Below are positions 1 through 20,140 of a stretch of DNA of 22,302 nucleotides, piece after piece (within the stretch, counting starts at the first letter, position 1; each line of letters starts with the position of its first letter). Below the pieces are notes generated by a model. It did no database searches, was not told the DNA's origin, and saw only the letters and a list, made by a program, of their open reading frames with translations. The position numbers and the translations under genes are program-made. Location: contig JAHBMJ010002141.1 of assembly GCA_018398765.1 (NCBI GenBank), positions 1-22,302 on the forward strand, written 5' to 3'. This DNA comes from Chromera velia (lineage: Eukaryota; Sar; Chromeraceae).

Positions 1-414
1 GTGGATTGTGGAGGGAAGGGCATCTGCGAGCACGGCCGGCAGCGGCCAAAGTGCAAGGTTTGTGGAGGGAATAGCATCTGTGAGCACCGCAGGGAGCGCC
101 ACTACTGCAAGGACTGCGGTGGGAAGGGAATTTGTGAGCACGGTCGGGAACGGAGAAAGTGCAAGGAGTGTGGAGGTAAGAGCCTCTGTGAGCATGGTCG
201 ACAGCGCTCTCAGTGCAAAGAGTGTGGAGGCAAGGGCATCTGTGGACACGGCCGGCAGCGTCCCCAGTGGAAGGAGTGTGGAGGGGCGAGTATCTGCGAG
301 CACGGCAGAAAGCGCTACTACTGCAAGGACTGCGGAGGAAAGGGCATCTGCGTGCACCAAAAAAGGCGACACGGCTGCAAAGAGTGCAAGCAGGTCTCTT
401 CCCTTCCTCTTTGA
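1..414 (+). CDS. 3' end of a Cys/His tandem-repeat protein (5' end outside the window)
   Basis: Frame 1 is open from the first base to a TGA at 412-414, giving 137 residues. No genuine start is visible: the first codon is GTG inside a repeat, so the gene continues upstream. It consists of about seven 18-residue units, consensus [GS]ICEHGRxRxxCK[ED]CGGx, each with a C-x-H-x6-C-x2-C set that could hold one zinc. The third unit from the end has Trp in place of the third ligand (codon TGG for TGC, about 268-270). The last unit diverges (ICVHQKRR) and the protein ends KQVSSLPL. The same ending closes the minus-strand gene at 4591-6869, so the two are paralogues lying tail to tail. Similar Cys/His repeats occur in algal and protist proteomes as far as I recall; I know no proven function. 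Metal, nucleic-acid or protein binding is inference. Confidence 0.85.
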   Translation: MDCGGKGICEHGRQRPKCKVCGGNSICEHRRERHYCKDCGGKGICEHGRERRKCKECGGKSLCEHGRQRSQCKECGGKGICGHGRQRPQWKECGGASICEHGRKRYYCKDCGGKGICVHQKRRHGCKECKQVSSLPL

Positions 415-4225: not shown

Positions 4226-4590
4226 CCACCCATGCAGACCCCCCTGAAAGACGGACACCGCGTGAAAGCAGACAGTCCACCCTCCCATCCCATCTGAGCA
4301 AGCTCCCGAAACCCCAAAAGAATCATTCCAAGACAGGCAAGAGACACTCTTGACCGGCAAGGAGAATCAAAATAGAAAGAGAAGGAAAAAGAGCGCAGAA
4401 AAAGGAAGAAATCGATAAACGCTGCCAGATGCAGAGGAGTCACGCAACCCCCTGTCTGCTTGAGTGAGCCCACTCGCAGCATTCAGCCATTTCTACAGGA
4501 GGAAAACAGGTCGTGAACGTGGCGCACGCATTCGGAACTGAAGAGACCCGACACACTCCAAACACACACAAAAAAAGGGGGGGGAAATCA
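3181..4590. other. Gene-free spacer 3' of the CBM20/repeat gene
   Basis: Ordinary to C-rich composition with CCCACAC tracts near 3415-3450, runs of C (3447-3456, 3532-3540), a purine-rich stretch at 3655-3720 and a (CA)n tract. Frames here translate to Cys/Val or Pro/His low-complexity strings from the repeats and are not credible proteins. The part nearest 4590 would be the 3' untranslated region of the minus-strand gene. Confidence 0.5.
4192..4223. repeat. (AC)n microsatellite
   Basis: About 16 uninterrupted AC units. Confidence 0.95.
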
Positions 4591-6869
4591 TTAATGAGGA
4601 AGGGAAGAGATCTGCTTGCAATCTTTGCAATGATGGCGCTGCTTTTGGTGAACACAGATACCCTTTCCTCCACAGTCCTTGCAGTAGTATCGCTGACGCC
4701 CGTGCTCGCAGATACCCCCCCCCCACACTCCTTGCACTGGGGACGCTGCCGGCCGTGTTCACAGATTTTCTTCCCGCCGCACTCCCTCCACTGATAGCGA
4801 TGACGCCCGTGCTCACAAATGCCCTTCCCGCCGCACTCCTTGCAATAAGTGCGTCGACGACCGTGCTCACAGATGCTCCCCCCTCCACACTCCTTGCAGT
4901 GAGAGCGAACACGACCGTGCTTGCAGACGCCCCCCCCCCCGCACTCTTTGCACCCAGAACGTTTGCGACCGTGCTCACAGATGCTCTTCCCTCCACAATC
5001 CTTGCACTGAGAGCGAACACGACGGTGCTCACATATACTGGACCCTCCGCAATCCTTGCACTTTTCTCGCTGTCGGCCGTGCTCACAAATACCCTTCCCT
5101 CCACAATCCTTGCAATAGTGACGCTGCCGCCCATGTTCACAGATGCCCTTCCCTCCGCATTCCTTGCAAGAAGTGCGTCGACGACCGTACTCACAGATGC
5201 CCTTCCCTCCGCATTCCTTGCAAGAAGTGCGTCGACGACCGTGCCCACAGATGCCCTTCCCTCCACAGTCTTTGCATATGCTCTGCTGTCGGCCATGCGG
5301 ACAGAGGATCCTTCCGTGTCGGTCTCTCTTGACCTCTCCTGTGCCCTCTCTCTCCTTCCCTGTTCTGTTGACCTCTCTTCTCCCACTGCCACCGTCACGC
5401 TGTCCACCCATCTGATGCTGCTGCTGCGCGTCGGTGCTGGAGGTGAAGGGGCGCTTTCGGTCAGCGTGACACCCTCTCTGTGCACCTGCATGTTCTGTGC
5501 AGTCTGTGTGACCACGGTCAGAGGGACAAAACGGATTGATCGCCCGTCCTGTCTGACAGGCTCTCCTCCCCCCCATCAACCTCCCTTCCGTTCCCTCAGG
5601 ATCTGACGGCTTGTCGCCCCCTGTCCAGTCTTTGTGAGATTCGGAGACGGCACAACAGGAAGGAGAAGAGAGACGGCGGCGCTTCGGTCCCTCACACACA
5701 GAGGAATCCCACTGCGCCTCTGACGATGCTTTGTCGGAACGGGACTGATGGACCCCTAGAAGAGACGCACCCCCACATGTCAAAGCACTCCTCCCTCTCA
5801 ACACACCCACTCTCCTCTCTCCATCAACACAGACAGGTGCGAATCTGCATCTCTCGTCATCAAAATGATCATGTCCCTTCTTCTCCCCCATCACCTCATT
5901 TACAGATACACACTGCCCTGTGGAAACATACAAAGACTCAGACTGAGCAGACGCGACCAGAATGTTCTTAGAGGCAAGTGTGACTCCGACGCCACCCACC
6001 GTCGCCTTCCCGCTCTCCCTCAAGGACACTCTCCCACCCCCCTCACTCTGCCGTCCGTCTGCAATGCGGTGGGTAAGCACACTTTCAGACCGCACTTCGT
6101 GTCCCCTTTCGTGTCCCCCCCCAACCTCTTTCCCAGACGAAACGCAAGTGAGAGAAGGAGACGAAAGGACAAGTGCAGGAGCAGAGAGCGACGTGTCAGA
6201 CTCTCTGACCGACAGGCCGCCCTCAGGTGGACCCCCGAACCCTCCCCTCTCACTCATTTCCCCCCTCTCCGCCTGTCTGTCTCCCTCACCGTCCATCTCC
6301 GAGGAGACAGAGGGGAACGTGTCCTGTTCGAGTTGCTGCTGTGCTAACACCATGTCTTCCAATCTCAACGCAGTCACCTGTGTCTGCCCATCTCCCCAAC
6401 GCCCCCCAAACAACGCAAACCCGCCACCAATCACCTCCACCTCCCGCAACCCACACCCCAAAGGCTCCCACACGCCCCCACAACAGTCCTGACTTCGACC
6501 GTCTGTGTGAGCTGATAATGAAAGGGCTGAAGTGACTGCGGAAGAGTTCTGACAACCATCTACCAGAACCGCGCCATCAACTAGCGCCATACCACCGCAA
6601 GCGGACGAACCTGCACCGACAGTGTCGGCACCTGGTCCGACAAGGGCAAACTGAAATCGAACCTGAGAGCGCGCGCTGTGAAGCATGGGAAAAGACATCC
6701 ACACGCCTGCGAAGGCAGGGTTCTTTACTCGATGGAGGGTGACACCGCGACTCGCATCCCACCCTCCGAGCTCTGAACTGCTCCCGATCACCACCAACCT
6801 CTGCCCCTCCCGAGGCTCCACACCAGAGCACGCGAAAAGCACACAACCCGTCTCCGCCTCGAGCATCAT
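4591..6869 (-). CDS. CBM20-like domain plus 13 Cys/His repeats; frameshifted near the 3' end
   Basis: The chosen start is the ATG at 6869-6867; the frame is open back to a TGA at about 6950, and an upstream coding exon joined at CTGCAG/GTGTCAC near 6920 is possible. From this ATG, residues 8-138 look like a CBM20 starch-binding module: GSSSELGGW at residues 29-37, a Trp at 57 and VWEPLG at 132-137 fit its conserved GS..LG.W and WE positions. A long Ser/Gly/Arg-rich linker without predicted fold follows to about residue 510. Then come 18-residue units [GS]ICEHGRxRxxCK[ED]CGGx (about 5315-4600); the tenth has Trp for its third ligand. In unit 12 a run of 10 G shifts the frame: with one more base the chain would run through two more units to KQISSLPH and TAA at 4591-4593, matching the paralogue's ending. 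As read, it leaves the repeat and stops at 4440. Starch or glycan binding is inferred. Confidence 0.75.
4600..5315 (-). repeat. 54-bp coding tandem repeats (13 units)
   Basis: Units of 54 bp encode C-x-H-x6-C-x2-C modules. Neighbouring units 2 and 3 (about 5157-5264) are nearly identical at DNA level, which points to recent duplication or homogenisation. Because 54 is a multiple of three and the units lack stops, all three minus frames and one plus frame stay open here, which creates long false frames. Confidence 0.9.
4715..4724. other. Homopolymer of 10 C (G on the coding strand) at the frameshift
   Basis: Between TGT and ATC of a unit there are normally 12 nt. Here there are 10 G plus T, i.e. 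11 nt. A neighbouring unit (4930-4940) has 11 G plus C, 12 nt, and keeps the frame. This is either a sequencing or assembly slip or a real length variant. Confidence 0.8.
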
Positions 6870-6990
6870 GATGTTTGGCCGCGAAGGGAAACACAAACGT
6901 GGATCGCGGTGTGACACCTGCAGGATGGCGACAAGCAAACAATTACATCAACAGAAAAAATCAACGTTTTCGTCCAGATGCGCAATCCAC

Positions 6991-10484: not shown

Positions 10485-10763
10485 AGGTTGGAAGTCAATT
10501 CGAAAGGGATGAAGAGAAGAGGACCGTAACACAGCAAAAAGAAAGAAGAGAGAAAGACAGGAGGGAAGGAAGGAAGAAAGGAATAGGAATTTCATTCCCC
10601 TGACGATCCGCCAGCCCCCCTTCCCCCCCTTTTTCCGCCACACATCTTCCCGTCTCTTCTCGTCATGCCCCTGCCTGCACGACCTTACGGCAGTGAGAGG
10701 AACTTTCTTTCTTCTTCTTTGCTTTTTTATTCTTGGAGTTCCGAGGGATCCTGAGAGAATCAG

Positions 10764-10849: not shown

Positions 10850-11174
10850 AAGTAGGCGTGAAATAAAAATTCAGCTAGAGAGAGAGAGACTGACAAAGGG
10901 CCTCTCCTCAAAAACACAAACAGAGCACACGCACCTCTCCCCCCACGTCCGCCTGTGCAACCCCCACCATGCCCCTAGGGATGGATGAAGAAAGTCGTGC
11001 GAAGGAGAAAAAAATATCGAGCAAGCAGGGAGATATCGAAAAGGGCAAGGCCAAAGAAAAGCAAACAAACACCCAAGAATACTCTCCCACAGATTAAAAG
11101 CAGAAGAGGAAGAAACGAAAAGGCGTAGATCCAATTTATAATTCTCCAGTCGTCTCACTGATTCACTCACTTAC

Positions 11175-12235
11175 TCACTCACTGACAGTGCTGATGTTCA
11201 GGTCCAGTTCCTGTCCCGTAATGTTTTTCCACCTGTGTGCAGAATGGCAGGCAAATTTGTGAATGCAAATGATGCATACACACCAAGTCGCATGGACTGA
11301 TGAGGACAAGTCGGTTCGGCACCCAGAAGACTGAGTCACAAAAAGGGATAAGGCCAGGCCATTTGGCATCACACAGACTAGTAGCTGAGTACAAGAAAGA
11401 CCGCACAAACGTTTTTGACTTTCATCATTCTGAAGAAGCGAAAGCTTCTTTGAGGACAAACAAACGCCTGATTGCAATCATTTGAACACTTCCGTAGGGA
11501 CATGCGGAGGCAGCCGTCTTTACTTTCTTTTACTTTGGAAAAAAAAAGTACGTACATGCGGAGGCAGTCGTCTGTTGCGGACTCGAAGTGACTGAGAGCG
11601 TCGTAGGACTCCGAAACAAAAACGCCGTCCTTCGCCCCGTCGTCAATAGGCTCGTACACGTCGCTCAGCTGCACCCACCAAGGATTCATTTTCATACTGA
11701 ATTCTGTTTCATGCATTTTCATACACTCATTTTCATACACAAAGAATGCGTACACGTCGCTCAGCTGCATGCATCAAGGAAGTAAGGAAGGAAGGAGGGC
11801 ATACACGTGTGTGCACACGCACCCATGCTGCCATATATCGAGAAGGTTCGAAGAAGTAAAAGATGACAGACAAAAGAGTCCTTACGAGATAGACGGACGC
11901 ACCAGCAGACAAAGAAACATTCCACCAAGCCGGTCCTCAAAATGTCTTCTTGACGTCTCTCTGCCCCACACAGAAGAGTATCGCCTCTTTTCATACTCTC
12001 CATTTGTTTGTAAGGTCTGGATGGAACCGACACGCCTCGTCTTGTCCTCAGTCCACGAAGAAAAAAAAGGCACTCACCGAAACGAAGTGTTCCTTGATGG
12101 GCCCCAGAAGGCGCAGAGCCGGTTCGACCTCGCTAAGAGGGTTGTTGCTCTCCACAGTTGTCGACACGATTGCAATGTAGAATCCCTGCTTGCAGACCTG
12201 GTGCTGGGAGGAGACCATCATCACGTACACGTCTG

Positions 12236-12311
<76 letters not shown>

Positions 12312-14087
12312 GTTACTTTCATACTTTTTGTAGATGCACGGAAACAGACCTTGAGACACCCTTTTTTCCAGATGGGTGTGTGTTTATCAGTGTGTCAATG
12401 CGTTTCCACGTACGTCTGTCAATCGGCCTCCTGTCGATGAATATATTTTTCCGCATGTCTGTTCCTGCCTGCTTGTTTGTATCAGAACAACTCCTCACCC
12501 CCCCAGAAAAGGAGACGCTGACCTGACTGCCTGCCGAGCTGGCTCTGAGGGATGATGATCTGACATGACGCCGCGTTGTTGGTGTTCGGAATGGGGGCTG
12601 TGAGAATGCACACAACTCGGACAGTCCTTCCAGTCACCCGCACCTGCATGGTGGGAAGGAGGGAGGGAGGGAATGAGGGGCATGCAGGGATTGAAAATGG
12701 GGGTTGACTAGGTGAGATAAGAACATCGAGAGAGAGCTTCACAGGGAGGGAGGAGGTACAGTTTTGTTGGCGTTTGCTTTGTGGGACCAAAATGTCGTCG
12801 ACTGTGCGGCTGACACTTTCACCCAGCTACAAGGCTAATCCAGTATCAAACAGAAATAGATCGATCGTGCCAGAGTAAGGACAGACCTTTGGCAAGTCAG
12901 TCACGTAAGAAGGATCACAGACGACCATCTTGCACTTGGCGACTTCCCCTGTGGTTGCCTTCACCCCGCAGACTTTGCCATCTTCTCCGAATTCGAATCC
13001 GGCGATCGGCTTGTTCAACATGTACGTGCCTCCGTGGATGGCAGACAGTCTGCTCAAGAAGAAGAAGAGAACGTGTGGTATTTCTTTGAGCAGAAAAAAG
13101 GATGAGTGGATTTCAGGCAGGCTGTTCTTGTTGTGTGTAGGGCCTGGAGAAGTATGGGTGGAAGAGGGAGGGTCACTGCTGCGGAAAGTCAAGGGAACTT
13201 TCGGGAAGGGTTCTGATTCTGGGGCAAACCGGAAAGGGGTGAGTGAGTGAGTGAGTGAGTGAGAGAGAGAGAGAAAGAGACAGAGTAACATGACTTCTTT
13301 TTTTCTTGTTCTTTCTGACAGACAGACTATACGGTTTCTTTCCCTCCTTTTCTTCATGAACACAAGCGACAAAAAGAAAGAAAACAACAAAGACAAAAGA
13401 ACATCACGACAACTCAGGCAGACAGAAAGAGGGAGTCAGAAGGAAAGAAGTGCATCTACCGACTGACCTGGAGAACCCCTCAGGCAGGCCTCCCAGACCA
13501 TACAGAGGGTAGATGAAGGGGGAGGAGCCATACCTCGTCAGAGAGAACATGTACAGCTTCACCTTCTCCATCGTTTCTCCCATGGGCCTGTGTAGATACC
13601 TGCAGGCACCGTTACTCACTCACACAGGTCTACCTCCGTACATACTTTCAACCCCCCTCTCTCTCCCGTGCACACACATAAACAGCATTTCTTTCCTCAC
13701 AGCTCTGCCCTAAAAAAGTCACGTCTTCATCCTTGTATTACTCATACATCCACAGGACCTCTTCTCTTTTCTCTTCTCTCTAATTCAATCAAGAAAAAAT
13801 TGTTGTTGTACGTAACTGACAGGAAGAAAGCGAGACGCCCCTCCCCCGCCACCCCTCCCCAGGTTCTGCTTTCGCTAAAGGAAGGCCAACGGCCTGTCTG
13901 ACTGTGCAAGAGAGGCAGACTGTGGACACCGCTCATACACAGAAGCACATACATGCACACAGACGCAAAGACAGATAGATGGACAGATGGACAGACAGAC
14001 AGACTGTATCGTCTTTTCTTTCCTTTTTCTCTTCCTTCAGACAGACAGACAGACTATATCGTCTTTTCTTCACTTCACTTTTTCCTC

Positions 14088-14120
<33 letters not shown>

Positions 14121-14374
14121 GCACGTGAGTCGATGTGGGGGACGGCAAGGCTGGGAGACGGGGCTGGAAATTCATTTCTACTATTATCTTCGTCGGGGGA
14201 AGCTGCAGGGATCCTTTGTGCTGGTGGAAAAATTGGGTTCCCCGGGAAGCCGGGAGGGGGTGGGACGTACGGTCGGTGATCCCGATGGCTCCAAATCTTC
14301 CCGTTCGGATTGTGGGAAAGCCAAACGAGGAGACGACGGAACCAACCGTTCAACCGACTCAAAAGATGCTTCCA

Positions 14375-14406
<32 letters not shown>

Positions 14407-17073
14407 TATATGTTTCTTCTTCTCCCTGACAGACAGACAGACAGACAGACAAAGAAAAAGAGAAAGACAGACCCGTCGTTAGTGTACAGTGCGACTGCGT
14501 GACCAATGAAATCAATCGTGTTCGTGTGAAGACCTGCAGAGACACGCAGAAGAAAATCGAATCAAAAGGGACGAAGGATGTCGAAGAATAGAGCCAGCAC
14601 AAAAACCAGAGAGCTAGCGAAACGGAAAAGAAAAAAAGGGACGCAAAAGAAAAGGACACCAGAAGTCGGAAAGACGGGACGGCCAGTACACTGATCAAGT
14701 CCCCTTTCCTTCCTGCCCCGCCCCTTATGCCTCTCAAGAAATCGACTCACCGAAACTTTCATAGACCTCTCTCATGGTCGTTCTGGAAGGATCAAAATCT
14801 GCAGTCAGTCAGTCAGTCAGGCAGGCAAACGAACGAAAACATCCATTCTGTCACCTATACATCCTCATTCAACCATTCGCACACTGGAAACCGATTGGCC
14901 CTTTCCCTGTCTCTCTCTCTGTCTGCTTCCTGTCCTTTTATACCGCTGCCAGGCTCACTGACGACATGGCTTCTTGAGGAATTGACTAATTTTCTGGTTA
15001 ACTACCTTCCCGCTTGCCTCTCCTCTCCCCCCACTGACTGACTGACTTTTCCATGTCGACTTGTCATTGTCGTCCCATTTGGCTGCGAATTGGAAGAAGT
15101 TCTTGCACCGGTTCTTCTCCAGGATGGACATCAGAGGAGACTTCAGAGCCTCTGTGTCGGTTGCGGGGACCTGGAGAGAGGGAGGGAGAGAAGCAATGAG
15201 AGGGGAGGAATAGAGAAAGAGGGGTAAGGAGAAGAAGAGAAGATTTTTTATTTTCATTTGACAGGCGAATCTCGAGCTTCACGCTGACTGTTCAGAATTT
15301 CCGGTGCAAAATGCAGCAAAAAGTTCCAGCACATGTTAAGGCATGAGAACTACTGATTGCTGACGCGCTTGCTACTCAGGGCTTAACCCTCACTACTTCA
15401 ATTTTACATGTGTAGAAACATGAACATAAACCCGTCACCATACAGACCACATAGGCTCAACCGGCAGGAAATGTCATCGCTTCAGACAGGGAGCCATCGA
15501 CAGCAGAAACAGTACGTTCTTGTCTGTGCAGACTGACTACCCCCAATCCTCGCCCCAATATTGTCCCTCTTCAAATCAAACAGACACCTTTTTCCCCTCT
15601 CCCCTTTCTTCCCAACCTACCTTGTGAATGAACTTTTCCGAAGTGAACATCCCCCCTGCCTGGTACTGATACACATACGTTCCCTCCACGCAGTGCCACT
15701 CCAGATAGCGAGTCACCTGCATGCACATTTCGTTTGTGCATAAACATATTAGTATACATCCAAGTGAGAGAGACACACAGAGACCCTTTTTTTTGCAAGT
15801 GCGGTTGCGTCTCTGCACCACAGTCCTCCCTGACTCGCTCTGATCCTCTCCAGCGCAGGTCGATCCGATTGCAGGAGGCATGTTTCTACTGAGGAGCAAG
15901 ATGAACGGAACACTACGACAAAGATATGCCGAAAACCGGAAGCAGGTCCGTCACTCTCTCTCGTTACGTCACTATCTATCTGTTCCGAGTGGACTCTCTC
16001 TCTTCCAGTCTTGCCTCCTTCTCGTGTCGTCTGTTCTTTTTTTCAACTGAACGTACACAGCCGCTCCACACACTTACGAGACTGCATGCCCCCAATACAT
16101 CCGCACAAGTCTTCTGAGAAACATGCAACGGTTTTTCTCTCTGCTTGTGTCCCGGTTAAATTCGGACCTTTGTGTGCAGGAGCATTTTGACCAGATTCCC
16201 ACAGGACATGATGAACTTGGGTACATGCATTTACTGTCATACAGAATTCTTTTTCATAAATGTATGACAGTAAATGCACGGACCTTTGTGTGCAGGAGCA
16301 TTTTGACCAGATTCCCACAGGACATGATGAACTTGGGAACCAGATCTACGTTCCAGTCCCTGTTGGCCCCCAGGTCGGGTGAGGGTTTCTGGCCGGGTCG
16401 GAACTTATCCCATAGGTTTGTCAGGTTCAGAGACGCGCACTCACCCCCGTAGTAGTTGTTCCTGTCTACATGGAGCACCTTCTTGCCTGCACACACAACA
16501 ATTGCATTTGTACATTTTAAAAGAGATCCGAGACCTTCCAATCTATCTACAAGAACTTTCTTGCATCCATGGAAACGGAAGGAGATCCGGAAACAGAGAA
16601 TGAAGCCGTCGGAAGAGGGGACCAGAAGGCGAAAGAAAAAGAAAAGGCGGTGTGTGATAGAACAGGGCCAGCTGCTCTACAGCAGAAGCCGTTGGGGAGA
16701 CGTGTGAGTCTCAGGGGCATCTAGGTTACTCAGGCAGCAGAAGAAACCGTGTGAGCAAGGGATCACTTAAGCACTCAGTCAGAGTCACACAGGAAGGGAA
16801 AGAGACGGTTCCTGACCGTGCACGGAGAGCAGCCCGGAAAGGATGCATTCCTTCAGCCCTGTGCCACAGACAACAACCTGCAGAGACGAAGCGAGCAGCA
16901 AAAACAAGTAGAGAAGCCAGGAAGAGCGAAATATAGACCAAACGCAGCACACCAGGCGACTCAAAGAGGAGGTACCAGGAGACAGGTAGATACAACGATG
17001 GGCATCCGGAGAAGAAGGGACTGACGTCGAACTCCTCCCCCTCGGGGAACTTCATCACAGGAGGCCCTGACAT
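11175..17073 (-). CDS. GDI1: Rab GDP-dissociation inhibitor (13 exons)
   Basis: Rab GDI extracts GDP-bound prenylated Rab GTPases from membranes and recycles them through the cytosol. Exons in gene order: 17073-17026, 16877-16817, 16486-16284, 15716-15621, 15170-15047, 14798-14751, 14533-14473, 13599-13468, 13049-12887, 12643-12523, 12232-12078, 11668-11556, 11232-11175. They sum to 1383 nt (460 residues plus TGA), close to the family's usual 445-450, and every splice phase matches. Diagnostic stretches in order: EEFD then [15 protein letters not shown] (N-terminal GxGxxxC region), [133 protein letters not shown]. The start is set by [17 protein letters not shown]7 is an alternative. No REP-type insertion is seen, so this is GDI and not Rab escort protein. 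Three introns carry exon-edge duplications. Confidence 0.95.
11500..11573. repeat. Exon 12 edge duplicated in intron 12
   Basis: ACATGCGGAGGCAGYCGTCT occurs at 11500-11519 and 11554-11573 (19 of 20 identical). The right copy spans the 3' edge and splice donor of the penultimate GDI exon; the left copy lies 54 bp inside the intron. The 34-bp spacer holds TACTTT...AAAGTA self-complementarity. Confidence 0.85.
11653..11779. repeat. Exon 12 acceptor edge duplicated in intron 11
   Basis: A 31-bp segment at 11653-11683 (acceptor TGCAG plus the first exon bases on the minus strand) recurs at 11749-11779 with 3 mismatches, 96 bp upstream in gene direction. The 65-bp spacer contains three ATTTTCATAC words and CATACTGAATTCTGTTTCAT (11693-11712). 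Confidence 0.9.
12237..12309. repeat. (AC)n microsatellite ending at a splice acceptor of intron 10
   Basis: On the gene strand this is a (TG)n tract of about 73 nt that ends about one base before GCAG at the start of the exon 12232-12078. Confidence 0.95.
13239..13273. repeat. (GAGT)n(GA)n microsatellite in GDI intron 8
   Basis: About five GAGT units followed by GA units. Confidence 0.95.
13321..13340. repeat. GACAGACTATA-TTTCTT element, intron 8 copy
   Basis: The word GACAGACTATACGGTTTCTT recurs with small changes in intron 7 at 13998-14020, 14048-14070 and 14400-14420. Confidence 0.6.
13970..14121. repeat. (GACA)n arrays with interspersed TATCGTCTTTTCTT, GDI intron 7
   Basis: GACA tracts alternate with a pyrimidine stretch; two copies of GACAGACTRTATCGTCTTTT are 50 bp apart (13998 and 14048). 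The last GACA run covers 14090-14121. Confidence 0.85.
14376..14450. repeat. Second (GACA)n array in GDI intron 7
   Basis: Two GACA runs are separated by CTATATGTTTCTTCTTCTCC, the same arrangement as at 13998-14100. Confidence 0.85.
14799..15046 (-). other. GDI intron 5, with GTCA/TGAC tetranucleotide repeats at both splice sites
   Basis: The intron opens with GTCAGTCAGTCAGTGG and closes with CTGACTGACTGACTGCAG on the gene strand. The donor is therefore one of three equal GTCAGT words 4 nt apart; only the first keeps the protein frame. Confidence 0.8.
16163..16337. repeat. 59-bp exact duplication of a GDI exon edge around a foldback spacer (intron 3)
   Basis: 16163-16221 and 16279-16337 are identical over 59 bp. 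The right copy is the end of the exon ending at 16284 plus its donor; the left copy is intronic. The 57-bp spacer holds 18-bp perfect inverted arms (16226-16243 and 16261-16278) around a 17-nt loop that includes GAATTCTTTTTCAT. Confidence 0.95.
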
Positions 17074-17747: not shown

Positions 17748-20140
17748 ATGCAGGAGGAAATTTCTCCCGCGGTGCGTGCAGCTGCTCTAAAGGAAGAGGG
17801 CAACAAATTTCTCAGCGATGGAAAGACAGAGAAAGCCATTGAGGCCTACACAGAGGCCATCGCCTTAGAACCTTCCAATCACATTTTCTGGTCCAATCGT
17901 TCTGCTGCCTATTTGAAGATTAATAATGGAGAGGAGTCGTTGAGAGATGCAGAAGAGTGCATTCGCGTATCTCCTCCGGAGTTCTGTAAAGGTTACAGCA
18001 GGAAGGCGACTGCGTTGATGCTGTTGAACCGTCCTGCAGAGGCCTTGGAGACGTGTCAGATCGGATTGAAGGCCGATCCAGGTAACAAAGTTCTTCAGGA
18101 GACTTTGAAGTCTTCCAAGAAGAGCTACGTGAACCAGCACCTCACAAAGACACCATGGATTGGCACAGTGTCTGAGGCCTTGGGGGGGTACGAGCAGTCT
18201 TTTCAATTTCAACCCGAGGGTGGTGTGTGTATTCAGATCTTGGGGAATAAAATGGATGGACGGTATAACATCAACATCGATCATAAGCCCTTCTGGCTGG
18301 ATGTCTATCTCCCAGACTGTCCCACGGGGGTTCCTCATGTCTTTAAATTTGATGTAGACCTTCTTTCAGACCTCCAGAAAGAAATTGATAGAAGGGAAGG
18401 TGTTCGAGCCGAGTCGAAGAAAAAGAAGAAGAAAAAGGGAAAGAAAGCGAATAAGGAGAAGGAAGAGCAGGGACAGCAGGTGGCAGGAGCAGGAAACGAG
18501 GAAACGGACTCAGCAGCTGCTGCAACAAGTGCAGCAGGGGGGGATGAGGATACATCCCCCTCTGCTCCTTCCCCCGCCTCCTCCTCGTCTCCTTCCCCGT
18601 CCTCTTCCTCCACAGCTTCTGCCGACCCCGGTTGGCATTTGTCTGAGCCCACCAGCCTGACACTAGTGTGTCCTTACATGTCCGTAGAGAGGCCGAGGAA
18701 GTTTGAGGGGGAGGGGATGGTGGAAATGAAGGCGATCTCGGCAGGGGAAGCAGATGCGTTGATGGCAGGAACGCAAAGGAAGGTGGACGCAAAGATTTTG
18801 GCCTTGCCCTTTGACGACCAAGTCAGTCAGTCTTTTTCCTGTCTTGTTCTTCTTTTCTGTCTCCTCACTCCACTTCTTTCCTTTCCTTCTGACGCTTCTC
18901 TCTCTGACTGTTCTTCTGCACCCCTCCCTCCTCTCTCCGCCTTTCGACCTCTCTCTCGCTTCCTCTGAACATGTATCTATGTGCCTCTTTTGATTTGCCT
19001 CCCTCCCGTTTGCGCACTGCCTGCCTGCAGGTGAAGAGTTTCTGCGAGGAGATGGTGTCCCTCCTGCCCGAGCACATGCAGGGACCCTCCCCCACAGACA
19101 GCGCAGAGGAGGGGTCTGCCAAAATGGCCGCAGCCCTCAGACTGCAGTCCAACATGATGAAATTGGACAACAGGTAGGTCGGAACAGCAGACAGACAGAG
19201 AGGGAGAGACTCAATGTATTCGATCCTCCTGGCTGTCTCTTGACTTGGATATTCCACTTCCCTAATGTGTGACTTCTTCACTTTTCATTCCATCAAGATA
19301 GATCTACAGAGTCAATCAGCTGGGGCTCGCTTCTCTCTCTTTTCCCTGAGTTGTGTGTGAAAGCGGGTGACGTCAGCCTAGTTCTATGTTCTTGCTCTCT
19401 TCTTATCTTGTCGAATTTGTGATTCGCGTTCCTTTCCTCTGTGACAAATAGTCATCCACAACCATGCTCCGTTACACACAAGAAGCGAATACAAACAATT
19501 TTCCGCCAGTGCTGGAATAGCACTTTTACTTCTTCCTCCCCCAGAGTACATCGGTATCAAGGGCCATTTTCTTTCTCTCTGCAGCGCCTGCTTGAATGAT
19601 CAGGAGGTTTACCTGGCACAAGTGAAGTTTCGGTTTGTTTTTCATTCGGCGTGCAGGTACCCGGAGCCCGTCTCTCTTGCCGTACAGCTGTATGTGGAGG
19701 GTCAGCAGGAGCCCCCCCCTGCGGTGAAGCAGTCCATAGAGACTTTGAAGAAAAAGATGGACGCTTTGGGCTTGAAAAAGAACGAGGAGGAGGGGATTGG
19801 TTCCGCCTCCTCTGCCAGTAGACTGAAGGAGGAGAAGGAGCGGTTGGAGGCAAAGAGAAAGGAAGCGTCTGCAACCCTGTCGTCGCATGATGATGAAGAG
19901 GGCAGGAGCAAAAGCACAGAGGCGCCTTCGAATTTGGATGACCCTGAGGGCAGATCTGTGGGGGGAGGGGGGAAGTTGAGTGGACGTCAGAAGGCGGCAA
20001 TTGTCCTCACTGCGATGGCGGTTGTCGGAGGGGGGGTTGCGCTCTTCCTGTACCTGACGAGGAAACCTTCTTCGTCGTCTTCTGGACGGGAGGGAGGGGG
20101 GGGGGCGTCTTCGAGTTTGAGAGGAGGGGGGGGTTCATAG
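17748..20140 (+). CDS. Tail-anchored TPR co-chaperone-like protein (3 exons)
   Basis: Exons 17748-18821, 19031-19173 and 19657-20140 (566 residues), or with an earlier acceptor a last exon of 19585-20140 (590 residues); all phases fit. Residues 12-112 are three TPR motifs of the Hop/Sti1 type. The five carboxylate-clamp residues that grip the EEVD tail of Hsp70/Hsp90 are present: K15, N19, N50, K81, R85. Residues 130-215 form a probable beta-rich domain I do not recognise (PEGGVCIQILGNKMDGRYN). A Lys-rich run (224-238) and a Ser/Ala/Pro-rich linker follow, then a conserved-looking segment (GWHLSEPTSLTLVCPYMSVE). Exon 3 holds a charged, probably coiled-coil stretch, a membrane span (AAIVLTAMAVVGGGVALFLYL, 19994-20056) and a short Arg/Lys/Ser/Gly tail. 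The layout resembles chaperone-docking TPR proteins of organelle or ER membranes such as OEP61. The target membrane cannot be told from sequence. Confidence 0.85.
19994..20056 (+). other. C-terminal transmembrane anchor of the TPR protein
   Basis: A 21-residue hydrophobic stretch preceded by RQK and followed by TRK lies 27 residues from the C-terminus, with no N-terminal signal peptide. This is the usual form of a tail-anchored protein. Confidence 0.85.

Follow-up and report, generated by a model that had tools for sequence, protein, structure and literature searches.

Short fold-back insertions between long host duplications, often at exon-intron junctions, in the genome of Chromera velia

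Introduction

Miniature inverted-repeat transposable elements (MITEs) and foldback elements are short and non-coding, carry inverted repeats and reach high copy numbers, and tandem duplications formed at paired nicks contain a duplicated target of tens of bp together with inserted filler. For introners, Gozashti et al. (2022; PMC9860276) give target duplications of 3–9 bp where these have been characterised. The introner elements of Amoebophrya, according to a further article (PMC7789003), have direct repeats of 3–5 nt and non-canonical introns, the element being the intron, and the same article names repeats of 10–15 bp for MITEs. In this study, a stretch of 22,302 nucleotides from Chromera velia (contig JAHBMJ010002141.1, positions 1 to 22,302; hereafter the window) was analyzed, in which two copies of a 20-bp core lie in a gene for a Rab GDP dissociation inhibitor (GDI). 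The core marks a large family of fold-back insertions of ~30–90 bp, each lying between duplications of host sequence that often contain an exon-intron junction. Throughout the text, A is the duplicated host stretch, E the insert and A-E-A an insert between two copies of A.

These insertions resemble MITEs and foldback elements in being short and of high copy number and in having inverted repeats (56 of 83 inserts are two-armed), whereas their duplications are far longer and variable and the inserts differ in length and at their ends. As in filler duplications at paired nicks, tens of bp of target are duplicated around an inserted filler, but the filler in the present case belongs to a single dispersed family with >1,000 matches. 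With introners, as portrayed in PMC9860276, they share short repeated inserts in genes, often inverted ends, and splice sites derived from the target duplication; unlike there, the duplication has a median of 41 bp (18–88 bp) and the insert appears to extend an intron that was already present. The introner elements of Amoebophrya (PMC7789003), an alveolate, likewise form hairpins, and their direct repeats extend across exon-intron boundaries, whereas the duplications found here are tens of bp long and the sites look GT-AG. In a mostly open-access literature, searched at the level of titles and abstract openings, no comparable family was described, and for introners together with Chromera only the Amoebophrya work (PMC7789003) turned up.

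Results

Two duplications at exon edges of a Rab GDI gene

With up to three mismatches allowed, the degenerate pattern CATACWGAATTCTKTTTCAT matched the window only at 11693–11712 and 16238–16257, in both cases with 0 mismatches. As stated in the original prediction, the two cores are identical at 18 of 20 positions (a mutual difference of 2 bases) and lie 4.5 kb apart in different introns. That such a pair would hardly arise by chance is borne out by shuffles, which averaged 0.01 matches and in 0 of 100 cases reached two. Both cores are located, again as proposed, in spacers between direct duplications of different exon edges, one with a 3′ splice site and one with a 5′ splice site.

Both inserts are hosted by the Rab GDI gene on the minus strand (Pfam GDI, 4e-42). 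The best PDB chain for its protein is 3p1w, which is labelled RabGDI and which we take to be a Plasmodium protein. With the first two exons joined by hand for the query, the PDB alignment is unbroken across the K/V exon join, and the 5′ splice site AAG/GTCCG (the slash marks the junction) therefore lies inside the 16163–16340 duplication. The second aligned block begins at LSDVYEP, so that this exon starts after TGCAG (TGCAG/CTGAGC), inside the 11653–11780 duplication. At both sites one copy of A runs into the coding exon, while E and the other copy of A form the intron side. The 16163–16340 structure consists of 62 bp of A, 54 bp of E and 62 bp of A, the copies being 98% identical (1 difference in 62); in the 11653–11780 structure these lengths are 32, 64 and 32 bp, and 29 of 32 positions are identical in a count made by eye. 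The features are:

16163–16224, minus strand: intronic copy A2 of the duplicated exon end and 5′ splice site; direct repeat D17, 98% identical to 16279–16340; downstream of E in the direction of the transcript
16225–16278, no strand given: fold-back element with arms TGCATTTACTGTCATAC / GTATGACAGTAAATGCA and centre AGAATTCTTTTTCATAAAT; DNA fold and genome-wide family match
16238–16257, plus strand: 20-bp core; pattern match
16279–16340, minus strand: exon-side copy A1, joined to the coding exon; Pfam GDI and PDB RabGDI alignment
16284/16283, minus strand: junction AAG/GTCCG, last exon base 16284 and first intron base 16283; PDB alignment continuous across K/V
11653–11684, minus strand: exon-side copy with the 3′ splice site and exon start (TGCAG/CTGAGCGACGTG); exon bases 11653–11668, intron from 11669
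11685–11748, no strand given: element copy, decayed or rearranged, in which the unit TTTTCATAC occurs three times; hairpin gone
11693–11712, plus strand: 20-bp core; pattern match
11749–11780, minus strand: intronic copy of the duplicated 3′ splice site and exon start; direct repeat
12312–12330, plus strand: possible single-arm remnant (GTTACTTTCATACTTTTTG) adjoining a CA microsatellite; by eye, with no flanking duplication visible

The foldback differs between the two sites: the insert at 16225–16278 forms a strong hairpin (−17.6 kcal/mol, z −8.0; 0 of 200 shuffles folded equally well), whereas the one near 11.7 kb is unfolded (z +1.3). Between them, at 13968–14459, the region of the GDI gene also contains several CAGA/GACA microsatellite blocks, one with a 49-bp higher-order unit.

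A genome-wide family of fold-back inserts

The genome search that had been asked for in the original prediction covered 177.8 Mb in 4,040 contigs and yielded 1,234 matches (604 + 630) to the core with up to 3 mismatches, as compared to 50 (24 + 26) for the reversed pattern; for the arm TGCATTTACTTTCATACAGAA, 1,137 + 1,125 matches were obtained as compared to 0 + 3. Such match counts exceed the number of elements, as one element may give two matches and arrays many. For closer analysis, the first 30 core places (all exact), 20 regions further along the core list and the first 30 exact arm places were sampled and merged with the window into 60 stretches of 265,016 bp. With 58 light-harvesting matches, the genome is that of a photosynthetic organism; PsaA/PsaB did not turn up in the assembly. 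Viral contigs contained zero exact matches to TTTACTTTCATACAGAATTCT, and in Rfam positions 11000–17000 of the window gave no match above the gathering score, with sub-threshold microRNA-like matches to the hairpin.

A typical copy reads TGCATTTACTTTCATACAGAATTCTTTTTCATACAG...GTATGAAAGTAAATGCA and is 22–120 bp long (median 58; 87 inserts, the extremes coming from arrays). In the count of two-armed inserts given above, a few elements were counted twice. Hairpin folds with z between −5 and −8 were found for three of four tested inserts, two of them folded together with flank. With up to 3 mismatches, 81 matches were obtained for a rarer centre, CAGGGAGCGC, by which a longer palindrome would be completed. 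The arms fall into types that are often common to both arms of an element, and arm variants within an element were matched in 25 cases and unmatched in 54. In the window element the variant ACTGTC occurs in both arms, and GCATTTACTGTCATACAG has no other exact match in the genome, with 279 matches one mismatch off; the shared variant points to copying between the arms or to correction of one by the other. Three one-armed copies (in C173, C286 and C942) were seen by eye to have A-rich right ends, as retroposed RNA might leave. Intact arms facing in opposite directions were noted in C1386 at 18098(+)/20946(−), 2.9 kb apart, and in C1427 at 8291(+)/8964(−), 0.7 kb apart, which could be longer relatives or merely two neighbouring elements.

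Long direct duplications around the inserts

The sampled matches formed 104 core clusters, 103 of them with enough flank; for a duplication to be counted, the direct repeat in the flanks had to reach a score of 16. The predicted flanking duplications were found for 97 of the 103 clusters, compared to 19 of 417 random places. Of the six clusters without a clear duplication, three plainly have none; the others comprise a borderline case, a cluster at an N gap and a cluster next to another copy. Merging of arrays reduced the clusters to 73 sites, and merging of two near-duplicates to 71. A measured 18–88 bp (quartiles 31, 41 and 49; 73 sites), with a few of the longest values overstated, since element-like letters were found inside A at 3 of the 71 sites. 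Identity between the copies of A ranged from 78 to 100% with a median of 97%, 22 of 92 being perfect, and this spread therefore suggests a range of ages.

Arrays were present at 9 of the 71 sites, with three to six copies of A spaced 63–128 bp apart. The place lists contain longer runs, namely 11 core matches ~100 bp apart in C1875 and 9 matches 64 bp apart in C135. Judged by position only, evenly spaced element matches extend over C1875:105009–106030, C135:68096–68625, C124:36659–37186, C3482:28944–29313 and C343:61263–61620, and such runs are apparently minisatellites born from A-E-A.

In total, 88 structures of the type A-X-A were recorded, X being the spacer. Of these, 26 were outside the element filter and consisted mostly of tandem repeats, together with at least 2 missed copies of E and, read by eye, about 8 other inserts. 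Spacers that fail the filter occur, in coordinates of the sampled stretches, in C24:18706 (at 815–889), C756:18000 (at 2359), C1414:79300 (at 10697 and 1801) and C57:100672 (at 472); one such spacer is found around the acceptor of an EGF exon and another has a poly-T/poly-A hairpin. Duplication with filler may thus be more general in this genome.

Splice sites within the duplicated stretches

An enrichment at exon borders had also been predicted, and TGCAG or AGGT on either strand was present in 52 of the 71 A stretches, 2.4-fold more than in the controls (21.9 ± 4.0; 200 sets of length-matched random stretches from the same loci, with a maximum of 33). Similarly, a junction with an open frame of at least 150 nt on its exon side was found at 49 of 71 sites, compared to 22.7 ± 3.9.

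For reading by homology, 41 pieces chosen, partly by eye, to overlap A were submitted, and 14 of them had usable homology. Pfam accounted for 12, namely GDI (two), an SDHA-like FAD domain, M16 peptidase, dynein heavy chain, TPR exons (two), EGF exons (three), WD40 and DIOX_N, of which DIOX_N (E-value 0.029) as well as the TPR_1 and WD40-type matches, both under the Pfam curated cut-offs, are weak; PDB chains added PRP6 and NOG1. A PDB match to lysozyme (E-value 0.03) was dismissed as chance. As the pieces had been chosen to overlap A, homology shows that inserts touching an exon include a splice site, and not how frequently exons are touched. The junction, placed by hand, was clearly within A at 12 of the 14 sites and doubtful at two: in C57 the presumed GT site is followed by a stop codon in frame, and A may span the end of the gene instead, and in C67 the Pfam E-value is the 0.029 just mentioned. 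For the GDI exons, dynein and NOG1 the alignment itself touches the junction, whereas elsewhere the splice motif sets its position. TGCAG or AGGT is present in A at 12 of the 14 homology-read sites, and a rough calibration on this figure would place most of the 71 sites at exon-intron junctions.

At the 12 clear sites, where the junctions were hand-placed, the intronic part of A was the shorter one (median 9.5 versus 30, p 0.03). In heuristic sets of 50, 49 and 38 sites the position of the junction in A was non-significant (p 0.45, 0.32 and 0.11, respectively), and on that measure targeting is therefore indistinguishable from exon-preferring insertion with selection. A home-made gene finder over-predicted exons and then learned microsatellite-like splice motifs, and a model of codon usage was drawn towards a repeat gene; because of these failures, gene structure was based on homology and splice motifs.

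Discussion

The reading favoured here, to which we assign a probability of roughly 0.55, is that a MITE- or introner-like foldback inserted into long staggered breaks and was retained at places where the duplication includes a splice site. In this scenario, a short MITE-like element with inverted repeats would enter a break with strand cuts tens of bp apart, and fill-in of the long overhangs would duplicate the target A and give A-E-A. With a splice site in A, one intact exon with its splice site would remain, so that the gene survives, and E and the second A would become extra intron. Slippage between the direct repeats could then generate A-E-A-E-A arrays, with the hairpin decaying thereafter. 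The original prediction, a foldback by which targets at exon-intron borders are duplicated, holds as far as the family, the duplications, the hairpin and the splice motifs are concerned; its introner half has so far found no support, and we only infer mobility, the staggered break, the enzyme responsible for movement and the sequence of steps. At the homology-read sites E appears to lie beside the splice site of an existing intron and to lengthen that intron. Duplications of such long and variable length point either to the filling-in of two nicks separated by tens of bp or to a template switch back across the target. If insertion were random and exonic copies were purged, exon edges would be no more than slightly enriched, since the interiors of introns stay open to it; insertion would therefore either prefer edges or prefer exons, with selection acting as a filter. 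It is a more tentative proposal, and one that we would not yet rely on, that a mobile hairpin family is aimed at exon-intron junctions and duplicates splice sites wholesale by cuts 20–60 bp apart.

Several observations weigh against the staggered-break insertion of a foldback. The outer edges show no clear nuclease motif (top information 0.13 bit), and we know of no DNA transposon with variable-length duplications of 20–60 bp. No longer relative with the same ends was found inside duplications in the 265 kb (10 matches, all up to 220 bp), transposase genes not having been searched. One-armed inserts make up 27 of 83, some of them artefacts of array splitting; the sample consists of intact copies in list order and is non-random, and 27 of the 41 submitted pieces had no usable homology. 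The support from AGGT, which was found 1–8 nt outside an intact arm 22 times genome-wide (19 with arrays counted once; 13 of the 22 are AGGTNNGT) compared to 2 for the permuted GGAT, is modest, given that about 9 would be expected at equal base frequencies by our own arithmetic. The TGCA end of E itself was rejected as a source of acceptors, since a G comes next after the intact end in just 44 of 289 cases.

The explanation that we rank second, although we consider it unlikely, is templated repair, in which the end of a break takes up one arm from an element already present, folds back on itself at the AGAATTCT palindrome to generate the second arm from the first, and then pairs again tens of bases upstream, so that the target is copied a second time. 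On this view, E would be a filler used repeatedly by error-prone repair and not a transposon. The window element, with ACTGTC in both arms and GCATTTACTGTCATACAG as a unique exact match, would fit such copying, as would the varying ends and centres of the inserts, the one-armed third of them (27 of 83), an insert in C1083 at 5843 that resembles the exact half of the longer palindrome, and the 26 of 88 A-X-A structures outside the element filter with their approximately 8 other inserts. It accords less well with arm variants that are unmatched in 54 cases and matched in only 25, with shared arm types that resemble subfamilies, and with >1,000 matches of a single sequence, which favour a dedicated mobile unit. 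Little credence is given to a short hairpin RNA that is retroposed by an enzyme of the long interspersed nuclear element (LINE) or Penelope-like type, the nicks of which yield variable target duplications. The duplication length is indeed variable and three one-armed copies end A-rich on the right, but a tail is absent from most of the 87 inserts, many of which have both arms, and no constant 3′ end is visible.

Very little credence is given to E and part of A forming a new intron, as an introner would, spliced from a GT in A1 to an AG in A2. TGCAGGT, usable as both splice sites, occurs in 8 of the 71 A copies; on the other hand, at the homology-read sites only one flank of A-E-A is seen to be coding, and the GDI intron extends well past A-E-A. 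A wholly new intron was seen at none of the 14 homology-read sites, the remaining 57 of 71 being unread. That chance or ordinary simple repeats account for the pattern can practically be dismissed: the window is rich in microsatellites, but this explanation is refuted by the shuffle, reversed-pattern, random-place and length-matched controls. Among these possibilities we thus favour foldback insertion into a staggered break.

The growth of introns and the shifting of splice sites are questions of long standing, and with over a thousand core matches and duplications from identical to decayed in one genome the steps could be traced. If the long duplications stem from insertion, an unusual nuclease or repair route would be implied; if they stem from templated repair, the genome would record the repair of breaks at exon edges. 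Junction-aimed insertion, if true, would be a new mode of integration and would continually feed the growth of introns, the turnover of splice sites and the birth of minisatellites in one genome.

Other features of the window

Two arrays of 54-bp tandem repeats are located at 3–357 (plus strand) and 4653–5276 (minus strand), in inverted orientation and up to ~75% alike over long arms. The latter array lies within an open reading frame at 4440–6938 (minus strand) with CKxCGGKxICEHGR-type repeats, the start of which resembles, by eye, a starch-binding (CBM20-like) domain. The start of a further open reading frame, at 17748–18968 (plus strand), was likewise seen by eye to resemble a TPR co-chaperone.

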